This document shows, one piece after another, positions 14,165 through 21,257 of a stretch of 22,548 bases of DNA. Source of the DNA: a virus. How positions within the stretch are numbered: position 1 is the first letter of the stretch; each line of letters begins with the position of its first letter. The DNA lies in the IMG/VR virus record IMGVR_UViG_3300028489_000003, positions 1 through 22,548 of that record; one strand, 5' to 3'. The position numbers and the translations under genes are program-made. The notes under the pieces are model-generated. The model worked only from the letters and a program-made list of their open reading frames with translations. It did not search any database and had not been told where the DNA came from.

Positions 14165-14389
14165 ATGAAGGAAGTCGTAACAATGGTTAAAGGATATATT
14201 GATGACTTAGCTCATCTTATGTTATCCTTTGTAGCCATAGGTGCTATTTCCGAAGTAATATTCGGAACAGGCATTTTTGGTGTCAATGTTATTGGAAACC
14301 TAACAGCAATTATCAGTCAGTTTGGAGAAGGCGGTTTCGCCGGACTCGTAGCTTTATTGGTATTGGTTGGTTTATTCCGCAGCAAGTAA
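14165..14389 (+). CDS. Small two-helix membrane protein, the only plus-strand gene
   Basis: This is a 74-residue hydrophobic protein. Residues about 15-37 and 56-71 are long enough to cross the membrane (LMLSFVAIGAISEVIFG; FAGLVALLVLVGLF). Between them is a Gly/Asn-containing loop, and the protein ends in the basic tail RSK. The ATG at 14165 is chosen because GGGAG lies 7 bases upstream; an internal ATG at 14186 has no such site. The coding sequence is visibly richer in G+C (about 40% by hand count) than the flanking structural genes. It has its own upstream TATAAATA boxes and a strong downstream terminator, so it forms a one-gene transcription unit. A holin, pinholin, membrane pore or virion membrane-associated peptide are all possible. 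No family can be assigned from sequence alone. Confidence 0.75.
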   Translation: MKEVVTMVKGYIDDLAHLMLSFVAIGAISEVIFGTGIFGVNVIGNLTAIISQFGEGGFAGLVALLVLVGLFRSK

Positions 14390-17825: not shown

Positions 17826-18265
17826 TGGAGCGGGGGAGATTCGAACTCCCGTCCTGTCTGTCTTTTCCAAAGAGTCATTCACAACTTAGTTGATTTATCA
17901 TTAGGTAAAAATCAACAAAACACCATCGAGCTCGTAACCTCGACTCCGCTTCATCATCTCTCTGAAGTAAGGAATAGTTCTCCACTAAGGTAGGATACTA
18001 TTACGCTCAACCGTTTGTCTAACTTATTTTATGCTCGGGTGTTAGACAACCCAAGAACTTATGCGTAAGCGTAAGTTGGTTGGGAATCCAGTATAGGTTC
18101 AACAAAAATGTCAAATCCCATTTCAGTATTGGCTAAATGCCAATCTATTTCCAACCCTTCGAGCGATTTATCGCTATTTTGGTTTGTGAGTCTTTTTTCA
18201 CGAGTCTTACTCAAACTCTGTTGCACTCTATTGTCAAATAACACCAGTCGAAACCTGTCCGCCCC
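17826..18265 (-). ncRNA. ssrA: Transfer-messenger RNA (tmRNA), one-piece
   Basis: This is a complete 440-base tmRNA. The 5' end GGGGCGGACAGG followed by TTTCGAC is the conserved tmRNA start. The 3' end has T-stem GGGAG, loop TTCGAAT, CTCCC, then CCGCTCC and discriminator A (17826). The acceptor stem pairs over seven positions with G3-U70, the alanine identity signal. The next bases are CTA, so CCA is not encoded. Pseudoknot 1 (about 18183-18220) forms from GAGT/GACTC and TGAGT/ACTCA. A hairpin at 18050-18084 holds the tag stop TAA (18059-18061). Pseudoknot 2 (18015-18052) uses GGGT/ACCC and a 9-bp TTGTCTAAC/GTTAGACAA pair. The in-frame tag ends QPTYAYA-stop. It would rescue stalled ribosomes and mark the products for decay. 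It is longer than the usual roughly 350-400 bases. Confidence 0.93.
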
Positions 18266-18751: not shown

Positions 18752-20188
18752 TTAAGTATCTAGCAGATGAGGTTTTCCTTCAATATATCCTGCGCTTGTA
18801 ACTTCTATTAATTCTACATTAGAATGAAACTCATCAATATTGTTAGCACCAACATAGCTGAAAGAACTACGTATCCCCTCTTGTATATCTTTAATAATTC
18901 TTTTTACTTTCCCTTTATAGGGAACAATCTTATAATTTCCTTCAACATTTTTAGTATCTCCTCTTGATTTTTTAGAATCTAATGAAGCAGAACCTCTATA
19001 CTTTTTATGTAACATTTCATTCGGCCACTTGCCTACTTTTTCGATTTCGCCTGGAGTTTCTTTTGTACCAGATAAAAGGGAGCCCAACATAATCGAGTCA
19101 GCCCCACAAGCAAGTCCTTTACACACATCACCAACATTGCGGCCCCCACCATCACCAATAATAGGGACATTATAATTATCAGCAACGGCGACACAATCAC
19201 GGATAGCAGACACTTGAGGGATTCCGACACCCGTTCTAATTCTCGTTTCACATAACGATCCATTTCCGATTCCGACTCTAATCGCATCTGCTCCTTTTTC
19301 GCATAAGTATTCACACGCTTCTCCTGTTGCAACTGAGCCAGCAACAACTTCGATTTTTGATATGATTTTTTTGATTTCTTCAATTGCGTCACCCACTAAT
19401 TTATGATGCCCATGCGCTACATCTATAAGTAACACATTACACCCATTGTTAATTAATTCTCTTGATCTTTCTATATAATCTTTCTTAACACCTACTGCGG
19501 CACATATTGGTAATTTACTTATAACTTTTTTTGAACTTTCCATACTTTTATAAAAGTCCTTTATAAGTTTTAATTTAATCTTACTTACCTTTATAGTAGG
19601 ATCTAATACGTTTAATAGATTCCTTTCATCTTCTTCATTTAATTCATCCATAAATATCTGTTGTTTATGAATATCAAAATAATCAAGATTTACCAGATGT
19701 CCCCACTTTAGTTTAAATACTTTCCTATAAAAAGACCTTATAGCACTTAAATTTAATTTAATTGGATGATTATCTAATGTTTCATCCAATAAAAATTTCC
19801 ATTCTTTTAATGTATACTCCTCAAGTGGTTTAGTTTTGGAACCAATTATTGTGCCTGCATAAGCAAACATAGAATCTACTTCATTCTCTAAAGTTACATT
19901 TTCTGATATAAACTTACCCCATAATTTTTTATTTAATTTTAACTTTTTTACTATACCAGCTTGTTCTTCAATACTCATAAAACGATGTATAACTCCAATA
20001 CCACCCAAATCCATCATTTCTAAAGCCATATCATATTCAGTAATGGTATCCATAGGTGAAGATACAATTGGTATTTTAATATTTTTAGTCTTTGTAAACC
20101 TAGTATTTAAATTAACTCTATTACGAGAAACCAACTCTGAATATTTAGGGACAATATTTACATCATCATACGCTAATAATTTTCTCAT
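18752..20188 (-). CDS. IMP dehydrogenase / GMP reductase family enzyme with an unusual inserted domain
   Basis: This is a 478-residue (beta/alpha)8-barrel enzyme. The N-terminus has AYDDVNIVP and SSPMDTITE (43-51), then IGVIHR. The catalytic loop is GIGNGSLCETRIRTGVGIPQ with C313 and the following Thr. IDVAHGHH, AGSVATGE, IIGDGGGR, and GSLLSGTKETPGE are the usual nucleotide-binding blocks. Residues about 84-226 sit where IMPDH carries its CBS pair but show no CBS signature; they are Lys- and Leu-rich helices. The flap near 399-418 (GSASLDSKKSRGDTKNVEG) resembles GMP reductases more than the Arg-Tyr flap of IMPDH. The ATG overlaps the upstream stop by 4 bases (ATGA). It could make XMP or convert GMP to IMP, so direction is unresolved. 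Confidence 0.85.
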   Translation of the reverse strand: MRKLLAYDDVNIVPKYSELVSRNRVNLNTRFTKTKNIKIPIVSSPMDTITEYDMALEMMDLGGIGVIHRFMSIEEQAGIVKKLKLNKKLWGKFISENVTLENEVDSMFAYAGTIIGSKTKPLEEYTLKEWKFLLDETLDNHPIKLNLSAIRSFYRKVFKLKWGHLVNLDYFDIHKQQIFMDELNEEDERNLLNVLDPTIKVSKIKLKLIKDFYKSMESSKKVISKLPICAAVGVKKDYIERSRELINNGCNVLLIDVAHGHHKLVGDAIEEIKKIISKIEVVAGSVATGEACEYLCEKGADAIRVGIGNGSLCETRIRTGVGIPQVSAIRDCVAVADNYNVPIIGDGGGRNVGDVCKGLACGADSIMLGSLLSGTKETPGEIEKVGKWPNEMLHKKYRGSASLDSKKSRGDTKNVEGNYKIVPYKGKVKRIIKDIQEGIRSSFSYVGANNIDEFHSNVELIEVTSAGYIEGKPHLLDT

Positions 20189-20604
20189 ACACTAACTTTC
20201 TTTCTATACCACTCATTAGAAGGTTTATCTTCATCAGTATTCCATACTGCTTTACTAATCAATTCATCAATTGGTTTATTTTCTTCACCAAATCTTCCGT
20301 CCATCTCCCATAATATATAGAGAGTTGTATTTAAAGAATCCGCTATTTTTTTCAATGTTTTATAATCTTCTGTAAGATTTAAATCACCAAACCACACTTT
20401 ACCATAATTAGGCATCAATACATTCGCATTGAATATAACCAAATCACCTTCGTGTTCTTCTGTATAATCCCATTTATGTCCTGCTATCATTCTAGCATCG
20501 TGAAATCCAAACGCACTAAAGTGTTGTTGTATTTCCCTTACTGACATTGTTGGTTTAAAATCACTTGGGTATGGTTCTGTAAGTGTTATTGTTTTATCAA
20601 ACAT
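20185..20604 (-). CDS. Conserved-looking 139-residue protein of unknown function
   Basis: The start at 20604 is chosen because its ATG overlaps the deformylase stop (TAATG) and GGAGG lies 12 bases upstream; the in-frame ATG at 20637 would lie inside the deformylase gene. The product has an N-terminal strand (DKTITLTEPYPSDF), then a helix, and a central block NYGKVWFGDLNLTEDYKTLK followed by LNTTLYILWEMDGRFGEEN. Length and composition resemble small phage proteins of unknown role. The Trp- and Asp-rich central part could bind a metal or a sugar, but no known motif is seen. It is coupled to the deformylase upstream and the purine enzyme downstream. Confidence 0.7.
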   Translation of the reverse strand: MFDKTITLTEPYPSDFKPTMSVREIQQHFSAFGFHDARMIAGHKWDYTEEHEGDLVIFNANVLMPNYGKVWFGDLNLTEDYKTLKKIADSLNTTLYILWEMDGRFGEENKPIDELISKAVWNTDEDKPSNEWYRKKVSV

Positions 20605-21257
20605 TAAGTTATAGGTCCTCCAATATAGATTTCCCATTTACCACTATCTATAAGTGGTTTTGCTTTTTTGTATTTCAAATCTTTTGTTTCTTTACCATCA
20701 GTAATCATCACAATTTCATTTCTTCCCCACTTCTGTTTAACTCTAATAGGTTCTAGTTTATGTTCTCTATCCATTATTGTAACTCCATTTAAATGGTCTA
20801 TTTCGTGTTGGACACAAATAGATTCTAGTAATCTTAATTCATTATCTTTTTTTATATTTTGTTCTTGTTCCCAACTTCCTTTACCTTCGGATGGATTTGT
20901 TGCTCCACTAAAATACCAATCAGATTCTTCTTGTTCTGTATGTATTATTACATTCTTAAATCTTTTTGTATCAACTCCCTTACCTTCATATGATAAGCAA
21001 CCTTCATAATATATTATATCATCCCATTGTTCTGTAATAACAGGATTGATTAAAATAAGGGGCTCCCGAACATTAACCACAGCAACACGAGCATCAATAC
21101 CAACTTGATTAGCCGCAAGCCCAATGCCATCTTTTCTCTCGGATAATATGTTAAGAAGTTCTTCTGCAATTTTGAGTCCTTCATCTACTGAAACCTTTCT
21201 CAGTTTTTTATTGATAACTGGGTTATCTTCTTTTAAACAATTAATTATTTTTGTCAT
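20604..21257 (-). CDS. def: Peptide deformylase
   Basis: This is a 217-residue protein with all three deformylase motifs: GIGLAANQVG (44-53), EGCLS with metal ligand C87 (85-89), and HEIDH with H151, catalytic E152 and H155. It removes the formyl group from new proteins. Compared with bacterial enzymes (about 165-190 residues), it has an insert of about 30 residues before motif III (roughly 112-142, SDWYFSGATNPSEGKGSWEQ) and an added tail of about 45 residues after the HEIDH helix (KWGRNEIVMITDGKETKDLK). The start shares a base with the stop of the 27-residue gene (TAATG), with no clear ribosome site, so it is probably coupled. A GC-rich patch lies over motif I (about 21061-21120). Confidence 0.93.
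   Translation of the reverse strand: MTKIINCLKEDNPVINKKLRKVSVDEGLKIAEELLNILSERKDGIGLAANQVGIDARVAVVNVREPLILINPVITEQWDDIIYYEGCLSYEGKGVDTKRFKNVIIHTEQEESDWYFSGATNPSEGKGSWEQEQNIKKDNELRLLESICVQHEIDHLNGVTIMDREHKLEPIRVKQKWGRNEIVMITDGKETKDLKYKKAKPLIDSGKWEIYIGGPIT

Follow-up and report, generated by a model that had tools for sequence, protein, structure and literature searches.

A predicted one-piece phage tmRNA with a long tag frame built of two conserved blocks

The length and sequence of a tmRNA tag decide which protease destroys the rescued proteins. SspB docks on the E. coli tmRNA tag. The Mycoplasma tag, of about 27 residues, makes several contacts with Lon, and its AFA ending goes with the loss of ClpXP. 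The extended tags of Mycoplasma and Mesoplasma tmRNAs are reportedly read by Lon, as Gur and Sauer in 2008 and Ge and Karzai in 2009 are said to have found.

The range stated for tmRNA tags is 8-35 residues (PMC3968760), with 10 as the commonest length (PMC11915505), and glycine resume codons are already known (PMC3968760). In E. coli, a nearly invariant A (A86) lies four bases above the resume codon, and tmRNA with another base in its place is inactive or has a shifted frame (PMC2481249). For a mutant E. coli tmRNA, base pairing around the resume codon has been suggested as the reason why function is blocked (PMC2481249). Phage tmRNAs have so far been without an agreed function. Those of the Melnitz type are two-piece molecules (PMC9004378), and the tmRNA of phage DS6A is little more than a tRNA-like domain, a kind of molecule that inhibits tmRNA (PMC4131195).

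Locus, RNA structure, and relatives

The window analyzed here is a 22.5-kb fragment (22,548 nucleotides) of the virus record IMGVR_UViG_3300028489_000003. The contig is myovirus-like, with nearly all of its genes on the minus strand, and the nearest annotated relatives of its baseplate protein belong to Microcystis phage Mel-JY01 (43% identity) and Flavobacterium phage immuto (39%). Amid the minus-strand genes, a 74-aa hydrophobic ORF at 14165-14389 (+) could encode a small membrane protein.

The initial annotation had read a full tmRNA at 18265-17826 (-), with a G3-U pair, T-arm, PK1, and stop hairpin, and Rfam recovered it there: the RF00023 match at 18265-17823 (-) spans the whole model, with 75.4 bits (E 6e-28; gathering score, 47 bits). 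ARAGORN, run on the window, called no tmRNA at 18265-17826. In the DNA, the mature molecule extends from 18265 to 17826, exactly as first annotated, and CCA is not encoded, the discriminator A at 17826 being followed by CTA (Table 1).

The adjacent 175-aa protein was used as bait and led to 23 related viral loci, and in most of the 20 bait loci scanned a tmRNA scoring above the cut-off occupies the corresponding position. With pattern scans, the set grew to 153 loci on viral contigs, which yielded 101 distinct full-length tmRNAs. The structure, A(-4), and hairpin checks cover the first 50 relatives, and the tag and synteny counts all 101. The pairs of the acceptor stem are retained in 47-49 of the 50, with compensatory changes at positions 4-6, and G3-U70 is present in 49. 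The T-arm retains five out of five pairs in all 50, and the consensus pairs of the stop-codon hairpin (H5) occur in 47-50, in both cases with compensatory changes, as is also true of the base of the long H2 helix. The 3' end reads CUCC-A-C-N, never ACCA, in all 50 full relatives. The stretch 18265-17826 (-) is, thus, a real, complete one-piece tmRNA.

Table 1. Features of the tmRNA gene and its surroundings in the window.
Feature	Position	Strand	Basis or remark
tmRNA (ssrA) gene, mature part	17826..18265	(-)	RF00023, 75.4 bits
Acceptor stem, 5' strand GGGGCGG	18259..18265	(-)	sequence; G3 opposite U70, alanine identity
Pseudoknot PK1, GAGTT/GACTC + TGAGT/ACTCA	18187..18218	(-)	sequence and Rfam alignment
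Probable outer stem around resume hairpin, AACC (18184-18181) with GGGTT (18157-18153)	18153..18184	(-)	
Frame-setting A at -4 from resume codon	18179..18179	(-)	equivalent of E. coli A86
Resume codon AGC	18173..18175	(-)	GGC in most relatives
Resume-codon hairpin AGCGA-TAAA-TCGCT	18162..18175	(-)	kept and rebuilt in relatives
Tag frame, 38 codons, SDKSLEGLEIDWHLANTEMGFDIFVEPILDSQPTYAYA	18062..18175	(-)	open and conserved in relatives
N-block, S-D-K-SL-E-GL-E-IDWHLA	18131..18175	(-)	near-invariant residues with synonymous codon change, 101 relatives
C-block, QPTYAYA	18062..18082	(-)	QP[TS]YAYA(A) or close variants in family
Tag stop codon TAA	18059..18061	(-)	sequence
Stop-codon hairpin (H5)	18056..18077	(-)	consensus pairs kept
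T-arm, loop GTTCGAATC	17834..17850	(-)	five pairs kept
Acceptor stem, 3' strand CCGCTCC	17827..17833	(-)	sequence and relatives
Cold-shock protein	window		adjoins tmRNA on one side
IMP dehydrogenase/GMP reductase	18752-20188	(-)	upstream of tmRNA
Peptide deformylase	20604-21257	(-)	upstream of tmRNA
Baseplate wedge, gp6-like, phrog_219	window		annotated gene
D12 adenine methylase	window		annotated gene

On its other side, the tmRNA is flanked by the gene for the 175-aa protein. The same gene is found near the tmRNA in 79 of the 101 relatives, which argues that the tmRNA gene is maintained. Peptide deformylase is near the tmRNA in 50/101 relatives and IMP dehydrogenase/GMP reductase in 35/101; together with the tmRNA, they constitute a translation/nucleotide gene cluster of the phage. 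Selenocysteine tRNA genes were also seen in phage contigs of the family (L086, 281-374 (-); L076, 9791-9884 (-)).

RF00023 scores of the relatives range from 57 to 111 bits, against 118-197 for the bacterial tmRNAs passing the cut-off. ARAGORN called only eight of 42 family loci, with seven tags cut to 11-24 residues and one in another frame. The usual annotation program is, therefore, largely blind to this family, and the extent of trans-translation among phages is probably underestimated.

Fourteen matches came from a scan in which each bacterial and archaeal species was represented by one genome; the only one with the tmRNA is on contig C77 of the MAG TMED198. This contig carries a polynucleotide kinase, a cluster of three tRNAs, and a phage-family protein, and is probably a co-binned phage contig; the MAG's own tmRNA is ordinary, with the short tag ADYGYAAAA. 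A chromosomal bacterial origin of the family was rejected, its sole carrier among the cellular genomes scanned being this phage-like contig.

The resume codon and the tag frame

The frame ending in QPTYAYA-stop had been described as open back through PK1, which holds in the window. Resumption had been proposed near the TAGCG that follows PK1, for a tag length of some 38 residues, and the 101 relatives lead to the same site and length. An A stands at -4 in 50 out of 50 relatives, ahead of AGC, GGC, GAC, or GGT, and the resume codon of the window was, therefore, placed at AGC 18175-18173. Across the family, this codon is GGC in 87 relatives, AGC in 11, GAC in two, and GGT in one. The tag then counts 38 residues, or 39 including the tRNA alanine. 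The resume codon and the stop hairpin are far apart and share one frame.

Three other starts were considered and rejected. In an E. coli-like register (UAGCG, then ATA), the frame closes after about eight codons and is without conservation. Codon conservation would allow a start at GAT, but the base at -4 is then U, whereas AGC/GGC obeys the A(-4) rule in 50/50. As for a start further upstream in the open ORF of the window, 23 out of 50 relatives have a stop in this frame in the last 60 nt before the resume codon, and pN/pS is 1.04 in the upstream part.

The tag frame is open from the resume codon to the stop in all 101 relatives, and spans 34-43 codons in 100 of them. There are ten tag length classes, all in frame, plus one 49-codon variant. 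Nearly all the others share the end motif, which implies that insertions and deletions come in whole codons. Codons of invariant residues vary among the 101 relatives (Leu as CTA/CTT/CTC/TTA, Ile as ATT/ATA/ATC, His as CAT/CAC, and Ala as GCT/GCC/GCA), and the +1 and +2 frames are mostly closed within 1-13 codons in the first 50. Computed from 25 ungapped tags, pN/pS is 0.44 in the tag frame, while the two other frames have 1.10 and 1.24. Column shuffles have a mean of 0.86, with at least one in 100 as low as 0.38, a weak test when taken alone, and the case for the frame is, therefore, built on the length classes and the codon variety. Judged by these patterns, the long frame is real and under protein-level selection in the whole family.

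The 49-codon variant is found in identical tmRNAs on two contigs (L041 and L042), the only ones in which the tag stop is lost: UAA has become CAA, and the tag ends in NTRT. This natural variant should spoil the usual tag end.

The most conserved part of the tag is the N-block, with an almost fixed family consensus, [GS]-[DE]-x-SL-x-GL-x-[IV]DW[HQ]LA. It is followed by a linker varying in sequence and length, and then by the C-block, which takes the form QP[TS]YAYA or YAYAA, sometimes YANA, HVYA, or YAFA, and once YALAA. The ending YAYA had been noted as unlike ALAA. This is right for the window, which is without a ClpXP-type ALAA, but the ending is less odd than it seemed, since YAYAA, VAYA, and similar ends are found on ordinary short bacterial tags; among the 101 relatives, 35 tags end in AYAA and one (L067) in ALAA. 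The C-block is, thus, similar to normal degradation ends, and what comes in addition is the N-block with its linker.

Synonymous change is also lowered in the N-block, which indicates that part of its conservation is at the RNA level (hairpin and GGGTTG). Two extra hairpins had been reported within the tag frame. The first, at 18162-18175, is conserved, with 4-7 Watson-Crick pairs in 50/50 relatives and four sequence versions: GCGA/UCGC; GCGAG/CUCGC (L002 and L024); GACGAA/UUCGUU (L090 and L094); and GGUGA/UCACU (L067). Rather than an inserted piece, as had been suggested, it is the resume-codon region itself. The second, at 18144-18128, shares bases with the DWHLAN codons, and some family members have lost it or keep it only as G-U pairs; it is partly forced by the codons, and as a conserved structure it is unproven. 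An outer stem (AACYY/GGGUU) probably surrounds the resume hairpin, as five out of five pairs form in 37 of 48 relatives, compared with 19% when the upstream sequence is shuffled. This stem, which is weaker in the window itself than in its relatives, would explain why the GGG-TTG codons hardly vary. Considering the pairing proposed as a block in the E. coli mutant, it is notable that the resume codon is kept in a rebuilt hairpin; the ribosome would have to open this hairpin, or else the hairpin would delay use of the frame.

Possible functions of the tag

The reading that we consider probable is that of a working phage tmRNA, belonging to a phage-specific family, whose long two-part tag serves as a degradation signal. 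By analogy with established tmRNA biology, host alanyl-tRNA synthetase would charge the molecule, and host SmpB and EF-Tu would bring it into ribosomes stalled during infection. Translation would pass to AGC/GGC, the resume codon fixed by the A at -4, and run to the UAA in the stop hairpin, while the resume hairpin probably shuts off the long frame as long as the ribosome has not opened it. A host AAA+ protease would recognize the C-block as the signal for degradation, a role that agrees with the YAYAA-type ends of bacterial tags and with the one relative ending in ALAA. The conserved N-block may provide a second docking site for the same protease or for an adaptor, spaced by the linker.

The use of host partners is suggested by the gene content. 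No smpB was found in 20 records, including family contigs of 216, 82, and 77 kb, all of them fragments. Another test, of 11 family records that are likewise fragments, found neither clpP nor lon; a ClpP gene occurs only in two distant phages. The family records being fragments, the largest of 216 kb, a phage smpB or protease could sit outside them, but their content suggests that the family tmRNA probably relies on host SmpB and host proteases.

A more specific proposal, which is put forward tentatively and is itself rather doubtful, is that the N-block constitutes a phage-made docking module beyond the degradation signal. The phage tmRNA would then override the host tag and send rescued chains to a protease, adaptor, or other partner of its choice. 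No homologue of the N-block with known function was found, nor any likeness of the tag to solved structures, nor similar DNA or a similar tag in cultured phages.

It is unlikely, although in keeping with the distribution of the N-block, that the tag changes the fate of rescued proteins, the N-block redirecting them to a phage protein, a membrane site, or a storage complex, or slowing their degradation. This block is the most conserved, is matched by none of the 59 other viral or 29 bacterial tags examined, and is found in cellular genomes only on the one phage contig. Nevertheless, with YAYA, YAYAA, and once ALAA, the C-block has the look of an ordinary signal for degradation.

Much less probable is a short true tag that starts closer to the stop hairpin or in a different frame, with the long frame as a by-product of RNA structure. 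The truncated ARAGORN tags, which start mid-frame in the seven relatives, agree with such a tag, but these starts differ among relatives and skip the conserved block. Furthermore, the long frame is open in 101 sequences, with whole-codon length changes and codon-level conservation, and the A(-4) rule points to AGC/GGC throughout.

Equally improbable is a decoy or inhibitor, mainly taking up SmpB or stalled ribosomes, for which the tag would hardly matter. This role was suggested for the stripped-down DS6A tmRNA, such a molecule inhibiting tmRNA (PMC4131195), and a TLD-only form is also present in the distantly related huge phage LR756508.1; protein-level selection on the tag in the whole family would, however, be needless for a decoy. 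A decaying or contaminating host gene, to which the modest Rfam scores might point, is the least credible reading of all, given 101 distinct copies that agree in structure and retain their phage gene neighbourhood, the absence of any sign of decay, and cellular-genome matches that yield a tmRNA only on a phage contig.

If the tag is indeed a two-part degradation signal, its conserved blocks suggest that these phages mark rescued proteins in a more elaborate way than bacteria do. Family tags mostly lie beyond 8-35 residues and have a second conserved block, which leads to a testable question: what binds the N-block?

Comparison with described tmRNAs

The one-piece bacterial tmRNA (RF00023, ssrA) shares with the window tmRNA the tRNA-like domain with G3-U70, the T-arm, PK1, the A at -4, a resume codon after PK1, a stop codon in H5, and a downstream pseudoknot region. 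As regards membership in RF00023, the window tmRNA scores above the cut-off and has G3-U70 and the T-arm, PK1 ahead of the tag, the A at -4, and a stop in a hairpin with a hydrophobic/Ala end. It exceeds the stated range of 8-35 residues (38 in the window, 34-43 in the family), which does not exclude membership, as this range sums up known tags and is not part of the definition of the family. The phage family differs from the bacterial form by its 34-43-codon tag, its conserved N-block, and a resume codon inside a conserved hairpin. Such a hairpin is lacking in 42 of 59 other viral tmRNAs, and about half of 29 bacterial tmRNAs have one.

Tags of the 59 control viral tmRNAs count 8-23 residues, except for a doubtful one of 29; these controls were called by ARAGORN, which cannot measure very long tags, so their lengths are biased downwards and do not imply that other tmRNAs never reach the length of this family. 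Of the 29 bacterial tmRNAs, from the phylum of the MAG TMED198, 28 have tags of 8-10 residues and one a tag of 21. In another viral tmRNA-like gene (L183), a crude reading gives a 35-residue frame ending in RPAA, which could be artefactual or represent another long tag.

The huge phage LR756508.1 (uncultured, 484 kb) has a related baseplate protein and a tmRNA at record positions 92434-92880. By the A(-4) rule, this single sequence reads GVNNADYESAGFTAEDFAQMDGESLYHGSERKPAAV (36 codons), a tag that is also long but unrelated in sequence, ending in KPAAV. The same phage carries, besides the full tmRNA, a TLD-only gene like that of DS6A, a 112-base tmRNA-like gene (L125, 1501-1612) with an acceptor stem and T-arm and no room for a tag.

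The window tmRNA is phage-encoded, like those of the Mycobacterium phages of the Bxz1 group, Bacillus phage G, DS6A, Melnitz, and the pelagimyophages; it has a 38-codon tag, whereas that of DS6A has none. The Mycoplasma/Mesoplasma tag offers a loose likeness, being long, with several conserved stretches and an aromatic-Ala end (AFA there, YAYA here), but it is shorter, belongs to a cellular gene, and does not share the N-block. A two-site tag, with a docking site and a pulling end, can be likened to SspB on the E. coli tag and to Lon on the Mycoplasma tag (work cited in PMC3985003). The tmRNA itself is of a known kind, and what is new is a large phage family with a tag design of N-block, linker, and C-block.
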